Assembly: GCA_026709225.1 (NCBI GenBank)
Contig: JAPOTJ010000055.1
Location: 14,826-78,825 of the forward strand
DNA from: Gammaproteobacteria bacterium
GTDB lineage: Bacteria > Pseudomonadota > Gammaproteobacteria > Pseudomonadales > Azotimanducaceae
DNA: 64,000 nucleotides
Direction: 5' to 3'
Under the pieces are notes generated by a model. It was given only the letters and a program-made list of their open reading frames with translations. It did no database searches and was not told the DNA's origin. The position numbers and the translations under genes are program-made. Positions 19,156 to 37,934 of this stretch are shown here, piece by piece (positions within the stretch are counted from its first letter, which is position 1; every line of letters starts with the position of its first letter).

Positions 19156-19222
19156 TGGTGTCCTCGTCGAGCACGTTTGGTGAGTCGATTCTCGAGCTTG
19201 GTTGTATCTGTGCGTCCATCAT
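19136..19222 (-). CDS. Possible 28-residue leader-type frame
   Basis: This is a tiny acidic frame (MMDAQIQPSSRID at the start, DEDTNEEDTD at the end). Its ATG overlaps the stop codon of the ATPase gene (ATGA), and its end overlaps the start of the 73-residue gene. It could be translated by coupling, or it could be the remnant of a longer gene. Evidence is limited to the overlaps on both sides. Confidence 0.3.
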   Translation of the reverse strand: MMDAQIQPSSRIDSPNVLDEDTNEEDTD

Positions 19223-20367
19223 AAAAGCTCACCAAGATTTCGCAATGCCTGATCGAGGGGGAGGGCTTGAATTCCGTCGAAATAGAGGGGTGAATCGCCA
19301 CCGTAGAAGATCAATGCCTTGCTGCCGGGATAGTCCTTTTGGAACTCGCGGAGTGCGCGCGTGTCTTTGCTATGGAGCTGTCGAGCGCGTTTGACTTCGA
19401 TCGCGACCAGTCCGTGCGGGCCATAGAGCACGAAATCAATCTCTAGCCCACCGCGGGTGCGCCAGAAATGCGGCGCATATTCAAATCTCGAATAGTGGTT
19501 GGTGGCAAGCAGCTCTTGAAGCACGAGGGTTTCAAGCGCGGGTCCGTCGATGTTGCCCGCTGAATCAAGCGGACCCTGCGGTCGCAGTGTGCGGAACACG
19601 CCCACATCGAAGAAATAGAATTTGCTTTGCGCGATGAGCTGGCGCTTGGCGCTGCGCGCAAAGACGGGTAGGCGGACGGCAAGCAGCAGGTCTTCTAGGA
19701 TCGAGAAATATCGCTCGGCGACGCCGCGTGCCACCTGCGCCTCGCGCGCCACCGTGCTGATGTTGAGTACTTGGCCTTGGGAGAGGGATGCGGTCTCAAG
19801 AAAGCGCGAAAAATGACCTATGTTTCGCGTCAGTCCTTCCTGCAAAACTTCTTCGCGAAGATAGGTCTGCACATAGTCCTTGAGGTACTGCGCCGGGTCG
19901 GGGTCGCTGAATCTCGCTGGCAGATGGCCGAAGCGCAGCGCATCCTCAAGATCAAACGCACGCCCTAGTTCGGGCGCCGTGAGCGGGTGCATCTGATAGG
20001 TGCGCGCGCGCCCTGCAAGCAGATTGACACCGCGCCGCCTCAGCGTGCGCGCGCTCGACCCAGTCAAGATGAATCGAAGTCCTCTCGACTCTATCAGGTG
20101 ATGCACTTCATGAAGCACCTGAGGGATGCGCTGCACTTCGTCGATGACAACCCAGCGCGAGAAGTCTTCTGCGGGTATCAGACGCCGCAACTGACTCGGT
20201 TCGGCGACGAGCGGGTTGTAGAACTCGGACTGCAGCAGGTTGATGTACAACGCGTCAGGCACGTTCTTCCTGAGCCAGGTCGTCTTGCCGGTGCCCCGTG
20301 GCCCGAACAGAAAGAAGCTCTTACCCGAAGTGAGCGGATGCGCTAGCAGTCGTGGGAAATGTCGCAT
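19219..20367 (-). CDS. AAA ATPase of the DUF4143 family
   Basis: This 382-residue P-loop ATPase has an N-terminal AAA domain (Walker A FGPRGTGKTTWL at about 23-34, Walker B-like WVVIDEVQRIP at about 73-83). A C-terminal DUF4143 domain, with a restriction-endonuclease-like fold, is recognisable from EIDFVLYGPHGLVAIEVKRA. The E-x-K pattern in VAIEVKR resembles a PD-(D/E)xK core. These proteins are common, patchily distributed accessory genes of unclear function. Its promoter region has a TATAAT and two copies of a 12-bp word, suggesting tight control. Confidence 0.88.
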   Translation of the reverse strand: MRHFPRLLAHPLTSGKSFFLFGPRGTGKTTWLRKNVPDALYINLLQSEFYNPLVAEPSQLRRLIPAEDFSRWVVIDEVQRIPQVLHEVHHLIESRGLRFILTGSSARTLRRRGVNLLAGRARTYQMHPLTAPELGRAFDLEDALRFGHLPARFSDPDPAQYLKDYVQTYLREEVLQEGLTRNIGHFSRFLETASLSQGQVLNISTVAREAQVARGVAERYFSILEDLLLAVRLPVFARSAKRQLIAQSKFYFFDVGVFRTLRPQGPLDSAGNIDGPALETLVLQELLATNHYSRFEYAPHFWRTRGGLEIDFVLYGPHGLVAIEVKRARQLHSKDTRALREFQKDYPGSKALIFYGGDSPLYFDGIQALPLDQALRNLGELL

Positions 20368-24929: not shown

Positions 24930-25023
24930 GGTCGTGTTCACACGCCCTAAGGAAAGAGACGCATATTAAGTCGCTGATAGAATAACCGGCACACGGGAAA
25001 GCAACATGTCTTGAGAGGTGGAA

Positions 25024-28000
25024 ATGAGCGAGGCCTCAACGAGGCAGGACATCATCACTACCGCCATTGAGCAGGCGGCCGAGATGAACCCGCAGGAGAC
25101 CGATGGCGAGTGGCTCGAAGTCGTCACCGTAGAGTCAGCGCCATATATCAAAGAATGGGACATCGCCGAGTGCTGGCATTGGCGCGAATGGCCTGATCGC
25201 CAGCAGCGTTTCAAGGAGACCACGAGGCAGGATCCCGGCATAGACGCCGTAGCGCGGCGTCGCAGCGACGGGCGCTACATCGCGATCCAGTGCAAATCTC
25301 GTAAGCTCGACGAAGCTGGCTGCGGCGCTTCAATCAAGGACGATGAAATAGCGAAATTCGGGCTCGCATCCGCAGATGAATTCTGGGCCGAACGCTGGCT
25401 TGTCACCAATGGCGATACGCCGCTTTCGAGTGGCGCAGCGAACGCACTGGCGATTCATGGCAAACCTCTGAAGCTGGTCAACATCACCAACGATCTGCAT
25501 CAGCAACAGCAGGCGAACGCCACAACCAATACGGTCTCCGAAGGCGACGACGGGTTGCGGAGCAAATCCAATATGCAAGATGAAGCCGTTGCGGAAAGCG
25601 TCCGCATCCTTAAGAGCCAAGCGCGCTCGGAGAGCGGTGGACTGCCGGTGGGCGAAGCGCGGGGAAGAATCATCCTGCCGTGCGGAACGGGCAAGACGCG
25701 CATTTCGCTGCGCATCATCGAAGCATTGACGCCTGAACGCGGGCTCTCCATCGTGCTCTGTCCGTCGATTGCGCTCGTCGCCCAGATACGGCGCGAGTAT
25801 CTGCAACACGCAAGTGTGTCGCTTGATGTACTGGCTGTTTGCTCTGATGAGAGCGCTGGCTACGATCCCAAGAAAGAGGGCAGCCGCAACGCGACGCTCG
25901 ACCCGACCGTTGACAACAGCAATGTCAGCGCGTCCGACGTCAAGGGCAAGGTCACCACCGATGCTGGCGAGATCGCGAACTGGATGCGAGAGGGCGCGCT
26001 CGGGAAAAGCATCAAGGTGCTCATCGGCACCTATCAGAGCAGCGCGAAGGTATCGGAAGCGCTTCTTGACGCGGGCATCCGGGCGAGCGTCATGATCGCC
26101 GACGAAGCGCATAGAACGGCAGGCTTGAAGCGCAAGAACTCGAAGTCGGCGGCGGCGAACAAGGAAGAGCAGCGTCTTCGCGACTTCACCGTCTGCCATG
26201 ACAACAGCAAATTCCCTGTGACGTACCGCGTCTATCAGACCGCGACGCCACGCATCTATGACGTCAAGCGTCCCACTGGCAACCCAAACTGGATCGTCCG
26301 CTCGATGGACGACGAAACGACCTTCGGTGTGGAACTCTATCGCAAGAGCTACCAGGAAGCCGTGCAGAGCCGCTGGCTGTCCGACTATCGCATTATTGCG
26401 CTCGGCATCAACGACCCGGATGCCTACAAGACCGCGAACGACCTCGCCAAGGCGACAAAAAGTACCGGGCGCGGCCAACTGACGACCACGGATTACCTGC
26501 GGGGCTTGGCGTTCGCGCTGACCATGGGCGGCGCCACGCAAGGCGATGAGGTCGATATCAAGTCGTGCATTGCCTTTATGAACACGGTGGACAAATCCAA
26601 GAACATGGCGGCGGACCTGCAAAGCGACCATGTAAAGCAGTGGATCTCGCGCTGGCTCAGCGAAAACGCCGATGGCAGGCGCGTGTCCGACTTTTCCCTT
26701 GAGCATCTCGACGCTTCGAGCAATGCGGCGGCGCGCGAAACCGCCAAGGGGCGGCTGGCTGCTGCCGATACGGCGCATCCTCACGGCATCATCAATGTTG
26801 GGATATTCGGAGAAGGCACCGACTCGCCGAGTTTGAGCGCGGTGGCGTTTTTGGAAGCGCGCAAGAGCCCCATCGATGTTGTGCAGGCCGTGGGTAGGGC
26901 GATGCGCACTGCGCCCGGCAAGGAACTCGGCTACATCGTCTGCCCGGTGGTGATTCCGCCTACCGCCGACCCGGAGAAGTGGCTGAGCACGAGCGCCCCG
27001 GAAGAGGGGTGGAAGGAACTCGGTCAAATCCTGCTTGCCCTGCGCGCTCACGACCAGCGCATCGAAGAAAATCTTGGTGAGCTCCTGCAACTGTACATCC
27101 CGAACCCGCCGCCGGTGGAGCGGACTTTGGTGGCGATCGCTGCCGGTGAAGGGAGGCGCATACAGTACGGCGAAGTGCAAGGCCCGCCCGGCGCCGCGCA
27201 GCACGCTGTCGAACAAGCGCTCGCAGGCAAGAGCCGCTTTGAGGCGGGCATCGCGCGTCTGAACGAGAAGCCCGATTCTAAAGAGGATGATGGTAGCGAG
27301 TCCGGTGTGTTTGTCATCGGCGAACAGCCTGCGGAATACGAAGCGTCCAAGGTGGAGATGACACAAATTCTCATCGGCAAGAAGCACAGCGATGGCAGCG
27401 TCGAGCTTCGTGCGGACTCGGTGGTGCGCGATGCGGCGCTTGCGGGCGAGGCGCGAGGCATTGTGAACATACAGAAAACCCGGGCACGCGCCCGCAAGAT
27501 GATCAACACTGGCGAAGGCGGCATTCGCGTGCGGCCGGGCGGCGCGCGCACGCCTCGAAAAACCGCCAAGGAACGAGCGGAAGAGCAGGGGCAGCTCATG
27601 CTCAAGCTGAGCGGGCTTGAGGAGTATGGCAACGCCATCAAGATGAACCTCTTATCGAAGTCGGGCTTAAGCGGCAATCGCGTCATGCGCGATCTCAACA
27701 TATTGGAATCGAGCATCACCGAAGCTGCGCATCATATGCGCGCCGATGGCTTGCTGCCCGCTCTGAACACGCACTTCGGACTCGACCGCCTCAAGGAGAC
27801 AGGGTCGAAGCAGGCCGATGGCTGTACGATCGCCGCGCTCTTGATGATGAACGCCGCGATGCTGCATCAGCGCATCAGCAATGGCGGCTGGCTCTCTGGC
27901 ATCAGCGACCTTGCGCTCATCAAGAACGAAGCCGATGTCGCACGCAAGCTCGGCCGCGAATGGGAGCGCATCATGCGCCACGATTTCCGCCCGGTGCTCG

Positions 28001-30351
28001 AACCCGCTTTGGAAGCGATCTATGCGGTCGAGACGACGGGCAAGACGGCTGGGCTGGAACGAGCGCTGCATCACCTCGCTGCGGAAGCGGAGCGTATTGC
28101 GGAAACTTATGCGGACATGGGCGCTGACCATGCCGGGCCGCTGTTCAACCGCGTGATGGGCAATCAGGCGTCGGATGGCGCGTTTTTCACTCGGCCTGTC
28201 GCCGCGTCGCTTGCCGCAAGGCTGACGCTCGATGCTTGCGGTGAGCAGGACTGGTCCGACCCAGAGGTTTGGCGGCAGCACAAGACGGTCGATTTGGCGT
28301 GCGGCAGCGGCACGCTGCTCGCGGCGATGCTCTTCGATATGAAGCGCCGTGCTGTCGAGAAAGGCGCGGACGCCGAGCGGCTGAACGAGCTTCAGAAGCT
28401 GGCAGTGGAGGATGTCATCAAGGGGTTGGATATCAATCCTGTATCGCTGCAACTCGCGGCGTCGCAATTAACTGCGGGCAATCAGCGCGTCAGTTACCGG
28501 AAGATGGGGCTGCATCTGATGCCGTATGGCCCGGATAAGCACGCGCCGGACCGCGTGTACGCCGGTACGCTCGAATTATTGGCGCAGCGCGCGATCGTGC
28601 AAAGGCGGGACGAACTCGATTTAGGTGACGATGCCATCGAGTCGCAAGCGACTTGGCAAGCGGCGGATGACGCCGAACTCGAAGATGCTGTGGATGCAGT
28701 GAAGGACGCGCGCATTGTCATTATGAATCCGCCGTTCACAAACCGTGCCAATATGGGTAAGAAATTTCCCAAGGACACTCAGAATGCCTTGCGAAATCGC
28801 GCCGACGGGTTGGAGGAAAAGCTGACGCGAGCCGACCCTGGTCTTATCGATTTTGCTGACAAAAACTCCATCAGTCCGCTTTTCGTTGGTCTTGCAGACC
28901 ACTGCGTAAAGCGCTCCGATGGAGTGGTCACGATGATTAATCCAACGATTGCGCTCACGGCACCCTCAGGTCTGCGCGAGCGTTTAGTGTTGGCGCAACG
29001 ATTCCACATCCACACTGTGTTGACTTCCCACCAACCGCGAAATATCAACCTGAGCCAGCATGCGGCCATCAACGAGAGCATCGTGGTGATGCGGCGGTGT
29101 GAAGGCGAACGGCCGCCAACACGTTTTATCAATCTTGATCGAGTTCCATCGGGCGATGACGAAGTCTTCGACTTGCATCAATGCATGCTGGGCTGTGACG
29201 GAGGTCTTATGGCGAATGGGTGGGGCAATGTCTATTACTGGTCATCGAAGCGCATAGAGACCGGTGACTGGACACCCGCGATCTGGCGATCATCGGAACT
29301 GGCAAAAGCAGGATGGGAGTTTGCCAACAGTTCAATCATGCGGAGACTTGGGTCGATACCCGGTTGCACTGCTCACGATGGAAGTCGCAGGGTGCGTGAG
29401 AACTTTGACAGATCACACCAAAACAACCCGGGAAGTATTCCCATTCTGGAGTCGAAAGGCGCTGACGGTCAGAAGAAGATTCGATCCGCACCCGACGGGC
29501 ACTGGATTTTCAAGATGGGTAGGGAACGCCAAGCAAAACACTATCTTGAGTGGTCGTCGCACCTTCTGATAACTGCTGGGCAACGTAGTAGCACCGCACG
29601 TTTGACTGCCACTGCGAGCGAAGCCAAACACCTCGGACAGACTTGGTTTCCCGTGGTCGGATTGTCGTCAGATGAAGCGAAGGCGGTGGCTGTATTCGTC
29701 AACTCAACGCTAGGAAGGCTTCAAATTATGCGAGATCCAGGGAAAACACTCGAGTTTCCAAGCTACTCGCCACAGGCCACAAACAACCTCAAAGTACCGG
29801 ATATCAAGGATGAGCGCATTCGCGAGCTTCTAGCCGACTGCTGGGAGCGCACCAAGGACATGATCGTCCCCCAATACCGAGACGGCGAATGCGAAGTGCG
29901 CCGCCTCTGGGACGAAGCCGTCGCCGAAGCGCTTGGCTGGGACGCCGCCGAACTCGCGCGGCTGCGCATGCTCCTGCACAAAGAACCCCATGTGCGCGGC
30001 CTCGGATACGGGCAATACGCCGACGAAGCGGAGATCGCGCCCGCCGACCGCCGACGCTTCACAGAACTCGCCGACCGTTGGGAGAGAGATACCGTCTTTA
30101 TGTCCAACTCAAGCCGTGCAGTCAAGCATCCCGCCCATAGGGAGATCATAAGCATGGGGGAATCGGTGGTGCCGCTGCTCATGGAACGGATTCAGGAGAA
30201 TCTGGACGGGAAGCGGGAAGCGGGCGGTCACTGGTTCTACGCGCTGCACAGTATCACCGGCGCCAACCCAGTCAAGCACAGCGAGCGCGGTAATATCCAA
30301 GCAGTGGAAGAGGCGTGGCTGGAATGGGGTGCCCGCAATGGATACGGCTAG
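25024..30351 (+). CDS. Single-chain restriction-modification enzyme (type ISP-like) with extra C-terminal domain
   Basis: This 1775-residue polypeptide combines every restriction-modification function. An Mrr/PD-(D/E)xK-type nuclease lies at about 65-100 (GIDAV, then AIQCKSRK). The SF2 helicase/translocase has Walker A PCGTGKT (about 219-225), IADEAH (about 358-363) and the arginine-finger motif QAVGRAMRT (about 621-629). A helical spacer is followed by a gamma-class N6-adenine methyltransferase with DLACGSGT (about 1090-1097) and NPPF (1235-1238), then a target-recognition region (about 1300-1640). This order matches type ISP enzymes such as LlaGI. The last 100 residues or so (about 1673-1775) are an extra domain resembling a small stand-alone protein family (RWERDTVF, HPAHREII, HWFYALHSITGANPV). 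The start ATG has GAGAGGTGG upstream. The stop overlaps the next gene by 14 bp. Confidence 0.88.
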   Translation: MSEASTRQDIITTAIEQAAEMNPQETDGEWLEVVTVESAPYIKEWDIAECWHWREWPDRQQRFKETTRQDPGIDAVARRRSDGRYIAIQCKSRKLDEAGCGASIKDDEIAKFGLASADEFWAERWLVTNGDTPLSSGAANALAIHGKPLKLVNITNDLHQQQQANATTNTVSEGDDGLRSKSNMQDEAVAESVRILKSQARSESGGLPVGEARGRIILPCGTGKTRISLRIIEALTPERGLSIVLCPSIALVAQIRREYLQHASVSLDVLAVCSDESAGYDPKKEGSRNATLDPTVDNSNVSASDVKGKVTTDAGEIANWMREGALGKSIKVLIGTYQSSAKVSEALLDAGIRASVMIADEAHRTAGLKRKNSKSAAANKEEQRLRDFTVCHDNSKFPVTYRVYQTATPRIYDVKRPTGNPNWIVRSMDDETTFGVELYRKSYQEAVQSRWLSDYRIIALGINDPDAYKTANDLAKATKSTGRGQLTTTDYLRGLAFALTMGGATQGDEVDIKSCIAFMNTVDKSKNMAADLQSDHVKQWISRWLSENADGRRVSDFSLEHLDASSNAAARETAKGRLAAADTAHPHGIINVGIFGEGTDSPSLSAVAFLEARKSPIDVVQAVGRAMRTAPGKELGYIVCPVVIPPTADPEKWLSTSAPEEGWKELGQILLALRAHDQRIEENLGELLQLYIPNPPPVERTLVAIAAGEGRRIQYGEVQGPPGAAQHAVEQALAGKSRFEAGIARLNEKPDSKEDDGSESGVFVIGEQPAEYEASKVEMTQILIGKKHSDGSVELRADSVVRDAALAGEARGIVNIQKTRARARKMINTGEGGIRVRPGGARTPRKTAKERAEEQGQLMLKLSGLEEYGNAIKMNLLSKSGLSGNRVMRDLNILESSITEAAHHMRADGLLPALNTHFGLDRLKETGSKQADGCTIAALLMMNAAMLHQRISNGGWLSGISDLALIKNEADVARKLGREWERIMRHDFRPVLEPALEAIYAVETTGKTAGLERALHHLAAEAERIAETYADMGADHAGPLFNRVMGNQASDGAFFTRPVAASLAARLTLDACGEQDWSDPEVWRQHKTVDLACGSGTLLAAMLFDMKRRAVEKGADAERLNELQKLAVEDVIKGLDINPVSLQLAASQLTAGNQRVSYRKMGLHLMPYGPDKHAPDRVYAGTLELLAQRAIVQRRDELDLGDDAIESQATWQAADDAELEDAVDAVKDARIVIMNPPFTNRANMGKKFPKDTQNALRNRADGLEEKLTRADPGLIDFADKNSISPLFVGLADHCVKRSDGVVTMINPTIALTAPSGLRERLVLAQRFHIHTVLTSHQPRNINLSQHAAINESIVVMRRCEGERPPTRFINLDRVPSGDDEVFDLHQCMLGCDGGLMANGWGNVYYWSSKRIETGDWTPAIWRSSELAKAGWEFANSSIMRRLGSIPGCTAHDGSRRVRENFDRSHQNNPGSIPILESKGADGQKKIRSAPDGHWIFKMGRERQAKHYLEWSSHLLITAGQRSSTARLTATASEAKHLGQTWFPVVGLSSDEAKAVAVFVNSTLGRLQIMRDPGKTLEFPSYSPQATNNLKVPDIKDERIRELLADCWERTKDMIVPQYRDGECEVRRLWDEAVAEALGWDAAELARLRMLLHKEPHVRGLGYGQYADEAEIAPADRRRFTELADRWERDTVFMSNSSRAVKHPAHREIISMGESVVPLLMERIQENLDGKREAGGHWFYALHSITGANPVKHSERGNIQAVEEAWLEWGARNGYG

Positions 30352-30793
30352 CTGGGAGCGGTTGCTTGCAGAGCAGTTCCCGAAGCTTGCCAGTGAGGGA
30401 TTCCATATAGTGGAACAGGCGTCACGCCGATACAACTGCATCGCATATGCTGCCGGCGATACTACCGATTGGTGGTGGCCAGGTCGCTACTGGCCCCCTT
30501 GGGCAACAGTCAACCACAAGATAGAAAGCCTCGAAGAACTGTTCGCCGGGTTGGATTACGGCGAGTGCGACGACGATAGCTTCGAGGCTGGCTACGAAAA
30601 GGTCGTTCTCTACGTGAGTTTTGGCAGGTTTGAACATGCGGCGCGGCAGGTGCCGACCGGACGTTGGCGCAGCAAAATGGGGCGGGGGCCGCTTATCGAA
30701 CATCTCAGCCCGGAATCGCTTGCGGGTGGCGTGTACGGCAGTCCGACAGCTTATATGCGGAGGCCCGCGATTGTTTCAGGCACTTCAGCATAA
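30338..30793 (+). CDS. Small conserved protein with YNCIAYA and WWWP motifs
   Basis: This 151-residue protein of unknown function is recognisable by YNCIAYAAGDTTDWWWP (about 27-43) and a tail with KMGRGPLIEHLSPESLAGGVYG. I recall this as a conserved family (I think DUF7689) normally encoded next to a small protein like the domain now fused to the end of the upstream restriction enzyme. The Cys and Asp in the NCIAYA..D motif could be catalytic, but that is speculation. The ATG at 30338 overlaps the upstream gene by 14 bp, implying translational coupling. Confidence 0.75.
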   Translation: MDTASWERLLAEQFPKLASEGFHIVEQASRRYNCIAYAAGDTTDWWWPGRYWPPWATVNHKIESLEELFAGLDYGECDDDSFEAGYEKVVLYVSFGRFEHAARQVPTGRWRSKMGRGPLIEHLSPESLAGGVYGSPTAYMRRPAIVSGTSA

Positions 30794-35646: not shown

Positions 35647-36108
35647 TCAAAAGCTCACCGCGTTTGCCAAAGGTTTTCCGCAGCTAATCAGAACGATGGC
35701 GGTTTGCCTCTGCTGAAACCGAATCGTCCGCTTTACCAAGGTCTTTTTGACATTGCTGTGGAAGCCGCGCCCGGCCACCACTGGCGTGAAATCGACATTG
35801 GTTTCCCCCGCAACCAGCTTGTCCACGATGTCGGCTCCGGCTTGCAACTGATCTGCGACTTGGGCGTGGACCTTGCCGCGCTTCAGCTCGAGCGCTACCA
35901 CCCAGCCAGTTTGGCCGTCGCTTTCTCCGAAGAGCAGGTAGTCGCAACGGGTTTCGCTTTTGCCGAGTGGCGAACCCGTCCGATCAAGGTCGAGAACCAA
36001 GCGCGGTTGCGGCACGTCTTTCAAGGGGACTTTGCAACCTTGCTTGCTGCAATGACTTACCTCCATGCTCGGTTCAACCCGCGAGCGCACGGCTTGCAGG
36101 AAACTCAC
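35647..36108 (-). CDS. Nuclease-like partner of the adjacent ATPase
   Basis: This protein of about 153 residues has a pattern resembling a PD-(D/E)xK nuclease core. CDYLLFGE supplies an acidic residue, followed by VVALELKRGK with the E-x-K pair, and then a helix with QVADQLQAGADIVDKL. I chose the GTG at 36108 because it overlaps the TGA of the ATPase gene (GTGA) and follows GGGAG; an earlier GTG at 36144 would overlap the ATPase by 40 bp. An ATPase coupled to a small nuclease-like protein is a common design in phage-defence modules. The role here is inferred, and I do not recognise the exact family. Confidence 0.6.
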   Translation of the reverse strand: MSFLQAVRSRVEPSMEVSHCSKQGCKVPLKDVPQPRLVLDLDRTGSPLGKSETRCDYLLFGESDGQTGWVVALELKRGKVHAQVADQLQAGADIVDKLVAGETNVDFTPVVAGRGFHSNVKKTLVKRTIRFQQRQTAIVLISCGKPLANAVSF

Positions 36109-37613
36109 GCATTGCTCCCGGCCAGATTGCCCAAGGTCACCCACTTGTTGTAGGTCTCGGCAGACACATCATCAAAGCTGGCGGAGTACAGATCGCCGGA
36201 GGCGCTGAGGTTGACCTCCTCGATCACCGTGCCCTTGGGCCGTTTTTTTGGATTGAATGCCCAGACGCCGACCTCCGATCTCTGGAGAGCAATGCCGTTG
36301 CCCTTGGCAGTCTTTTGGCGTGACTTGGGCACTGCGGATGTGAGGACAATGTTGCTGAGCTCCTCCAGAACCCACTCGCTGTGGGTGGTCACTAGAACCC
36401 GGATGCCTGAATTCACGACGCTTGCGATCTGCCGGGTGAACTCAACCTGCATGGCGGGATGCAGATGCGATTCAGGTTCCTCGATGATCAGGAGGTCGCC
36501 CGGTACAACCAAATGGCGCAGGAACAGCACCACCGGGGCAAGTTCGGAAACCATGGAGGAGGCGTTCATCAAGGGCAGCGTTTCACGCCACCCCTCCGGC
36601 TGGTAAGCGAAGCGGGGATAGCCCGCGGCCTCGCCTGTTTCCATCAGCACCGTGCCTTGGAGGATGGCGTCCTCAATCTTCCCGGCTTGGCTGGCGCGCG
36701 ATTTCCGGCGCCGATGCGGATGGCTGTCAATGCCGATCAGTTGCTCCAGAAAGTCTGCCAGCACGCCGGACAGCGTGGGCGTCTTGGGCGCTTGACGCAG
36801 GCCAGCCATTGCGGCTCTTTCGATCAGTGCGCTGACGACGACGCTGTGCGCGTGCATGACGCCCGTTCGATCCGCTGGCAGGTAGTAGGCCTGGCGATGC
36901 AGCGCGCCAACAATCTCAGGCAGCAACAGGTCGATCAATGACTCCAACAGGCGCGCATACCGGAACGGCGCTTCGGGCCGGCCGACGAGGAGTCGGCCGA
37001 TTCGTTCCAGTTCCCAGAGAGTGCGGCTGTGGCTGGTTTCGCCGTTGAGCGAAAACTCCAGTTCGTCAGGAAAAGTGGAGATGAACTCCAGTGGTTTCAG
37101 TGACAGCTTGTGCTCAAACTTGATCGAGCCAGCGTCATCTGATGGTTTGCGCACGGTGACTCCCGATTGTCCGCCTTTCCCTCTGCGGACCAGAGCGGGA
37201 AGGCTGGCGGCCCCAAAGCATCGGGTGATTTCATCGGCAAGGGCGCTGGCCTGCTCGGAGAATAGGGACTGAATCGTCCGGGCAACGGCGGATGGTATGG
37301 TCAGCGCATCGTCGCTTCGCCCCTCCCACGGAGGCTCATCATGGCTGCCGAAAACTTCACCGGCCCAGTCCCCAACGGCCTTGATTGTGCTGCTTGGCGT
37401 TCCGCTCTCCGACGCAAAGCGAACAGGATTGCGCATGCCGCCCGGCATCTCCGACCCGAAGAACCGATGCAGCGCATAGATTAGGATGGCTAAGTAGGAC
37501 TTGCCCGTGTTGCTCGGTCCCACAAAGACCGTCAACGGACGCAGATCGATTCGTCCTTCAATGATCGGGCCAAAATTGGCGAGTTCCAGTTCGATCGGTT
37601 CTTTGGTGGTCAT
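36105..37613 (-). CDS. AAA/OLD-like ABC-type ATPase
   Basis: This 502-residue SMC/ABC-type ATPase is of the kind found in OLD, Septu and retron-associated systems. The N-terminus reads IELELANFGPI followed by Walker A VGPSNTGKSYLA (about 29-40). A long helical middle follows, then a Walker B LLIIEEPESHLHPAMQ and a switch-type VTTHSEWVLEEL near the C-terminus. No Toprim domain is visible, so it is not a complete OLD nuclease. The nuclease function would come from the overlapping downstream gene. The start MTTKEP at 37613 is the family-like start; 21 upstream in-frame residues look non-coding. Confidence 0.85.
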   Translation of the reverse strand: MTTKEPIELELANFGPIIEGRIDLRPLTVFVGPSNTGKSYLAILIYALHRFFGSEMPGGMRNPVRFASESGTPSSTIKAVGDWAGEVFGSHDEPPWEGRSDDALTIPSAVARTIQSLFSEQASALADEITRCFGAASLPALVRRGKGGQSGVTVRKPSDDAGSIKFEHKLSLKPLEFISTFPDELEFSLNGETSHSRTLWELERIGRLLVGRPEAPFRYARLLESLIDLLLPEIVGALHRQAYYLPADRTGVMHAHSVVVSALIERAAMAGLRQAPKTPTLSGVLADFLEQLIGIDSHPHRRRKSRASQAGKIEDAILQGTVLMETGEAAGYPRFAYQPEGWRETLPLMNASSMVSELAPVVLFLRHLVVPGDLLIIEEPESHLHPAMQVEFTRQIASVVNSGIRVLVTTHSEWVLEELSNIVLTSAVPKSRQKTAKGNGIALQRSEVGVWAFNPKKRPKGTVIEEVNLSASGDLYSASFDDVSAETYNKWVTLGNLAGSNA

Positions 37614-37934
37614 TCTTCGTCCCAGTAAGTCTTGACGAGCGCGCTGATGCGAAAGGCAACTCCATCTCCTCATCATACGCGCCCGTAGCCGTCTGGTAGG
37701 CTCCCTCGGTGCCTTGTTGCCAACACACTGAAGGAACCGCGCTGGCGAGGATGGGTGAATATCCTAGCCAGTACGGTTCCCCGCTCGAAACTTGTTCACG
37801 GGAGGCAAAGTACGGCTGGCTCAATGCGGAATCAAGCGAAAATCGCACCCGCGCATGTCGCCCTGAATGCCGTTGAAGCGAAAGTGATGACGCATGTATT
37901 CCTCATGCTTTCGCTTGATCTTTCACAATAGCCG
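37614..37934. other. Region without a recognised gene
   Basis: This 321-bp stretch lies between the ATPase gene and the coiled-coil gene. A minus-strand frame from a GTG at 37848 (96 codons, running into the ATPase gene in another frame) has plausible composition (GYSPILASAVPSVCWQQG). A 33-residue piece ending DMRGCDFRLIPH overlaps it near 37930-37830. I recognise neither, so they may be debris of transferred genes. No clear promoter stands out. Confidence 0.35.

Follow-up and report, generated by a model that had tools for sequence, protein, structure and literature searches.

A type ISP-like restriction-modification enzyme with a C-terminal HWF domain and an overlapping DUF7689 gene: a possible guard arrangement

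Within the window, the 64,000-nucleotide stretch of gammaproteobacterial DNA analysed here, a single-chain restriction-modification (R-M) enzyme of type ISP-like architecture carries a C-terminal domain of about 100 residues, here named HWF after its motif, and its stop codon is overlapped by a gene of the DUF7689 family. HWF begins at a sharp boundary, is paired near-obligately with DUF7689 across genomes and viral contigs, and its partner conserves a Cys, a His and a second His in a predicted papain-like fold. We propose that HWF on this enzyme may silence DUF7689, a putative hydrolase that would be unleashed if infection inhibited, remodelled or destroyed the enzyme, a reading to which we give a probability of roughly 0.4. 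The fusion suggests that a defence enzyme bears, and keeps under control, a further weapon directed at proteins, and it gives an uncharacterised gene pair of chromosomes and viral contigs a testable role by pointing to a partner enzyme and an assayable activity.

Layout of the enzyme and its C-terminal addition

An initial annotation had described a type ISP-like enzyme with a tail of about 100 residues and a small gene overlapping its stop, and both descriptions were borne out by profile matches (Mrr_cat_2, ResIII), methylase motifs and the junction itself. The features of the enzyme are as follows.

25018..30351, + strand: type ISP-like R-M enzyme with C-terminal HWF, 1777 aa if started at the GTG, 1775 aa if started at the ATG at 25024
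25153..25509, + strand: Mrr-type nuclease domain, residues 46-164 (Mrr_cat_2, E 6e-13; motif IDAVARR...AIQCK)
25570..27087, + strand: SF2 helicase-like ATPase, residues ~185-690 (ResIII, E 2e-12; LlaBIII, E 4e-48 over 71-689)
27115..28167, + strand: putative coupler, residues ~700-1050, boundaries approximate, placed by position between helicase and methylase and by analogy with LlaBIII
28168..29217, + strand: predicted N6-adenine methyltransferase domain, residues ~1050-1400 (DLACGSG at 1092, NPPF at 1237; weak Eco57I/MTS matches)
29218..30045, + strand: target-recognition region (TRD), residues ~1400-1676, the most divergent part among relatives
30046..30348, + strand: HWF, an all-helical accessory domain, residues ~1677-1777 (profile matches, AlphaFold2 model)
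30338..30351, + strand: 14-nt stop/start overlap of the enzyme and DUF7689 genes (junction sequences)

As in type ISP enzymes, the single chain holds an N-terminal Mrr-family nuclease with a PD-(D/E)XK-type motif, an SF2 helicase-like ATPase, and an N6-adenine methylase with a TRD that dispenses with a separate specificity subunit. The Pfam ResIII match covers residues 185-411, and the helicase motifs are GTGKT (223), DEAH (362) and QAVGRAMR (623). The closest solved proteins are LlaBIII (4xqk), aligned over residues 71-689, and LlaGI (5ffj), over 214-689; the methylase half has diverged too far to match either in sequence, and its probable identity follows from its motifs and position. Type ISP chains end with the TRD, whereas this one runs on for the ~100 residues of HWF, which contain both HPAHREII and HWFYALHSITGANPV. 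Judged from its sequence, the enzyme is an extended variant of type ISP and not a typical member.

In the published type ISP architecture the C-terminal end is formed by the TRD core, jaw and guide (PMC4872093). Two homologues from the window's family have alignments that reach the TRD's end, L043 from genome G119 (52% identity) and L044 from G096 (48%). Their chains stop at '..GQYADAG' ('..HVRGLGRGQYADAG') or near the equivalent point, which is where HWF starts here, and LlaGI and LlaBIII also end with the TRD (PMC4872093); a reading of the tail as a regular component of type ISP enzymes was rejected on these grounds, in support of the earlier suggestion that a two-gene module had moved onto an R-M enzyme. 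In a profile search the tail matched stand-alone proteins, mostly of 98-211 aa, encoded upstream of DUF7689 genes. AlphaFold2 modelled it as five or six helices (pLDDT 89.5). A HEAT-like or other known fold was considered and rejected, with no Foldseek match below E 5 and a best VIA Z of 3.6, a structural null that does not suffice to call the fold new. HWF had no match in Pfam, sequence searches of the PDB with the HWF and DUF7689 profiles returned none, and neither protein matched a known toxin, antitoxin or defence family in Pfam (beyond DUF7689 itself), NCBIfam, PADLOC or PHROGs; P0002 gave no match in plasmids and phages.

The DUF7689 gene and conservation of the fused cassette

30338..30793, + strand: DUF7689 (PF24738) protein, 151 aa, predicted papain/NlpC-P60-like fold (Pfam, AlphaFold2, structural matches)
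30437..30439, + strand: codon of Cys34, predicted nucleophile, invariant in 30/30
30635..30637, + strand: codon of His100, predicted catalytic base, present in 29/29 aligned
30701..30703, + strand: codon of His122, predicted third active-site residue, present in 26/28

The 151-aa product, in which the motifs YNCIAYA and WWWP had been noticed, was identified by domain search as a member of PF24738 (E 3e-34; 118.6 bits against a gathering threshold of 22.6; model positions 2-118 of 118), a family that has no described function and whose name was not found in the literature searched. Conservation of the three residues was counted over 30 HWF-DUF7689 pairs. In the AlphaFold2 model (pLDDT 93.3) Cys34 opens a helix (34-38), His100 lies in a strand (97-104) and His122 stands at the end of another (119-122); the predicted fold is papain/NlpC-P60-like, its Cys beginning a helix and His lying within the sheet. 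The structural matches, which include AvrPphB, NlpC/P60 peptidases, the type VI secretion (T6SS) amidases Tae1/Tse1, CdiA-CT and a papain-like toxin/immunity pair (9l5u), are consistently papain-like but individually weak (Z at most 6.1, Foldseek E-values above 0.01). On this model the protein may be an active papain-like hydrolase. Weak CHAP or NLPC_P60 similarity was seen in two distant members of the family (L022 and L017).

The fused enzyme followed by DUF7689, with an identical 14-nt overlap, was found at L002, L003, L004, L005, L030 and L040. The fusion with its overlapping gene recurs in five or more further genomes and has been kept at six or more loci from several genera. A purine-rich stretch just 5' of the DUF7689 start is provided by the codons of the tail's conserved WLEWG. 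Among relatives the TRD is 51-75% identical and the helicase 84-99%. Between L003 and L004 the nuclease, helicase and coupler are 96-99% identical, the methylase 76% and the TRD 61%, while HWF is 98-99% and DUF7689 95% identical, a pattern indicating that the recognition part has been exchanged and the accessory part kept. These two near-identical enzymes (L003 2690-8014; L004 370-5697) form a natural specificity switch. For both HWF and DUF7689, dN lies well below dS in most pairs (ratio about 0.2-0.3, a rough figure since dS is near saturation). An acyl-CoA carboxylase gene adjoins the cassette in the window and lies 2.9 kb from it in G154, and other genes flank it in L002/L005 and in L003, giving at least three different genomic contexts overall. 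A second, truncated HWF frame lies just downstream of the DUF7689 gene in L030 (2659-2817; genome G143), probably a trace of cassette exchange or duplication.

HWF-DUF7689 pairs also exist apart from R-M enzymes, and the cassette could in principle be a mobile pair that landed behind an enzyme and was fused to it by read-through of the frames, with no functional coupling. We regard such hitch-hiking as very improbable, given that the fusion and the 14-nt overlap have been kept in at least six loci of several genera, that dN/dS is well below 1 for HWF and DUF7689, and that the TRD has been exchanged around the cassette.

Pairing of HWF with DUF7689 and its other carriers

Our survey with the HWF and DUF7689 profiles covered 200 genomes of the window's family. 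DUF7689 scored above the cut-off in 12, two of which were set aside (G115, a broken frame; G132, a weak NlpC-like protein); in all ten with a strong match HWF is adjacent, HWF occurring in 11 genomes, and the overlap of ten genomes among 200 has a hypergeometric probability of 5e-16. Both genes look degenerate in G131. The initial annotation had described the tail-like protein as normally encoded beside the YNCIAYA/WWWP protein, and this pairing proved real: a stand-alone HWF gene lies directly upstream of DUF7689 in L006, L008, L018, L020 and L021, and profile scans of viral contigs with DUF7689 found HWF directly upstream in 20/20 distinct contigs, usually overlapping or abutting, with weak HWF matches in L104 (E 3e-7) and L113 (E 5e-8). 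In the genomes and contigs covered, HWF and DUF7689 are thus a near-obligate pair, far beyond chance. Their distances are correlated (Mantel r 0.64, 0/2000 permutations), which reflects co-inheritance that linkage alone explains and is hence no evidence of contact.

The two partners do not occur symmetrically. No strong DUF7689 match stands without HWF among the 200 family genomes and the 20 viral contigs, and HWF stands without DUF7689 in genome G007 and in five large phage contigs (LR756508, 484 kb; IMG/VR contigs of 452, 412, 140 and 86 kb, some possibly fragments). For the strong DUF7689 matches this is the occurrence expected of a toxin, never alone, and an antitoxin, sometimes alone; the distant DUF7689 members L017, L019 and L022 lack HWF. 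The stand-alone phage proteins (L025 3989-4291, L079 7992-8285, L080 7968-8264, L082 7827-8312, L084 7986-8282) are candidate anti-defence proteins. In antitoxin-toxin operons the antitoxin gene often comes first and the toxin second, with overlapping ends. An antitoxin-like role of HWF is therefore favoured by the asymmetric occurrence, the HWF-first gene order and the overlap.

The same three features would suit a purely selfish cassette, in which HWF is antitoxin to DUF7689 and fusion to a useful enzyme only hinders loss of the cassette, with no sensing of infection; carriage on viral contigs and the at least three genomic contexts point the same way. This account leaves unexplained why fusions to particular partner proteins recur and why the first gene varies, however, and we consider it decidedly unlikely.

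HWF is found at the C-terminus of unrelated proteins: the ISP enzyme, a PD-(D/E)XK-like protein and a sigma-70 region 2. In G075 and G119 it is fused to the PD-(D/E)XK-like protein; DUF7689 comes next, then the type III genes Mod and Res, and the locus further holds genes for an HSP90-like ATPase protein and a C5 methylase. The N-terminal part of this fusion is assigned to PD-(D/E)XK from the motif DVVLQTPKHLCIGEVK only, having no Pfam or PDB match. The sigma-70 region 2 fusion, also followed by DUF7689, is on a viral contig (L097 3139-4014). Ahead of stand-alone HWF genes there is often a variable first gene, which is TIGR04255 in L071 and L073 and, by sequence likeness, in L106, L107, L111 and L112, DUF3467 in L074, and of several unnamed kinds elsewhere. 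On the six viral contigs with a TIGR04255-type gene, a candidate third gene of the module, the HWF protein that follows it has a hydrophobic N-terminus and DUF7689 comes last. In G395 the pair has a DUF499 gene nearby, together with what looks by eye like a fragment of HsdR. On a Bacteroides conjugative plasmid (L024 5035-6033) a predicted lipoprotein, with a MAC/perforin gene downstream, contains a DUF7689-like and then an HWF-like domain (E 3e-6) in one chain. Two domains fused in one chain usually touch, and L024 thus argues for direct contact between the two.

The proposal that the module is a defence accessory was upheld in part. The R-M links in G075/G119 and G395 and the frequent carriage on viral contigs make it likely, whereas the sigma-70, TIGR04255, DUF3467 and unknown companions speak against an exclusive tie to defence. 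Most of the genes that surround the enzyme in the window are metabolic, with no dense defence island. An AAA_15/AAA_21 ATPase resembling PD-T4-4_A, AriA and OLD-type defence ATPases is encoded 5.3 kb downstream (36105-37676, - strand), and an AAA_14-DUF4143 ATPase at 19219-20367 (- strand) matches the PADLOC candidate PDC-S01.

A general plug-in role, in which HWF-DUF7689 reports or acts on the protein bearing HWF, would best account for the sigma-factor fusion and for the variety of first genes, and it leaves room for a regulatory hydrolase. ClpXP controls type I restriction, and DUF7689 could similarly dock on HWF and process or remove its carrier, be it the enzyme, the nuclease or the sigma factor, in which case HWF would be a processing handle and not an antitoxin. 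The position of HWF, always C-terminal on unrelated N-terminal proteins, sigma-70 region 2 included, and then followed by DUF7689, agrees with this, as does a papain-like fold suited to proteolysis. The lone HWF proteins of large phages, which have no hydrolase, are not predicted by it, though, and typical stand-alone HWF proteins hold little else to process; we judge it unlikely, if still worth weighing.

HWF might also be a mere tether, with no latent toxin, by which the translocating enzyme carries the hydrolase against phage proteins on the same DNA. The fusion would dock DUF7689 at the C-terminus, after the TRD, and other R-M genes are associated with the pair in G075/G119, yet pairs on viral contigs exist without any nuclease and the phages have orphan HWF, so that such a direct second effector seems improbable.

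Proposed mechanism and comparison with known systems

In the guard arrangement that we prefer, a type ISP enzyme would have acquired HWF, the helical partner domain of a two-protein module with the DUF7689 cysteine hydrolase. The 14-nt overlap would couple translation, so that the HWF enzyme and DUF7689 are made together, and HWF would dock DUF7689 onto the C-terminus of the enzyme and hold it inactive. Inhibition, remodelling or destruction of the enzyme in infection would then release or activate DUF7689, whose toxic action would be an attack on a host or phage protein, in an arrangement like that of PrrC with EcoprrI. A guard role is suggested because HWF, the likely inhibitor, is built into a restriction enzyme, as expected for a sensor of restriction inhibition or loss. 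The identity of HWF (98-99%) and DUF7689 (95%) across the TRD exchange was counted in its favour; the middling structural Z, the sigma-factor, TIGR04255 and DUF3467 companions, the metabolic neighbours and the missing match to known toxin or antitoxin families were counted against it. A more specific version is doubtful: that HWF is a built-in antitoxin silencing a papain-like protease toxin which loss or inhibition of restriction unleashes, that the orphan phage HWF proteins are decoys neutralising the protease, and that the same core is a general guard module on other proteins. If the guard arrangement is true, the guarding function of R-M systems would reach beyond RNA-cutting effectors (PrrC) to include papain-like hydrolases, and the orphan HWF proteins of large phages would be candidates for an anti-defence role.

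The enzyme shares with LlaGI and LlaBIII (4xqk, 5ffj) the order Mrr nuclease, SF2 helicase, coupler, N6-adenine methylase and TRD in a single chain. Those enzymes, of 1578 aa, end at the TRD guide subdomain (PMC4872093), whereas the window enzyme adds the ~100-residue HWF and the overlapping DUF7689 gene. The 151-aa protein is a clear member of DUF7689 (PF24738). With NlpC/P60, CHAP and papain-like toxins (AvrPphB, Tae1/Tse1, CdiA-CT, 9l5u) it has in common a predicted fold in which the Cys begins a helix and His lies in the strands that follow; the likeness is at fold level only, DUF7689 being a family of its own with the motifs N-C-[IV]-A-x-A and WxSKxG, and the window protein has no evident signal peptide. 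A precedent for an effector silenced by an R-M system is PrrC with EcoprrI (PMC12707154, PMC2610378), with which, as with PARIS, the window system shares the proposed logic of an R-M-linked effector released upon restriction inhibition (PMC12707154, PMC2610378); no homology is claimed, and the likeness is one of logic alone. The link of effector to R-M is seen here as genetic linkage and fusion, and silencing is predicted. PrrC is an anticodon nuclease encoded beside a multi-subunit type IC enzyme, whereas in the window a papain-like hydrolase is the candidate effector, with its putative tether fused into a single-chain enzyme.
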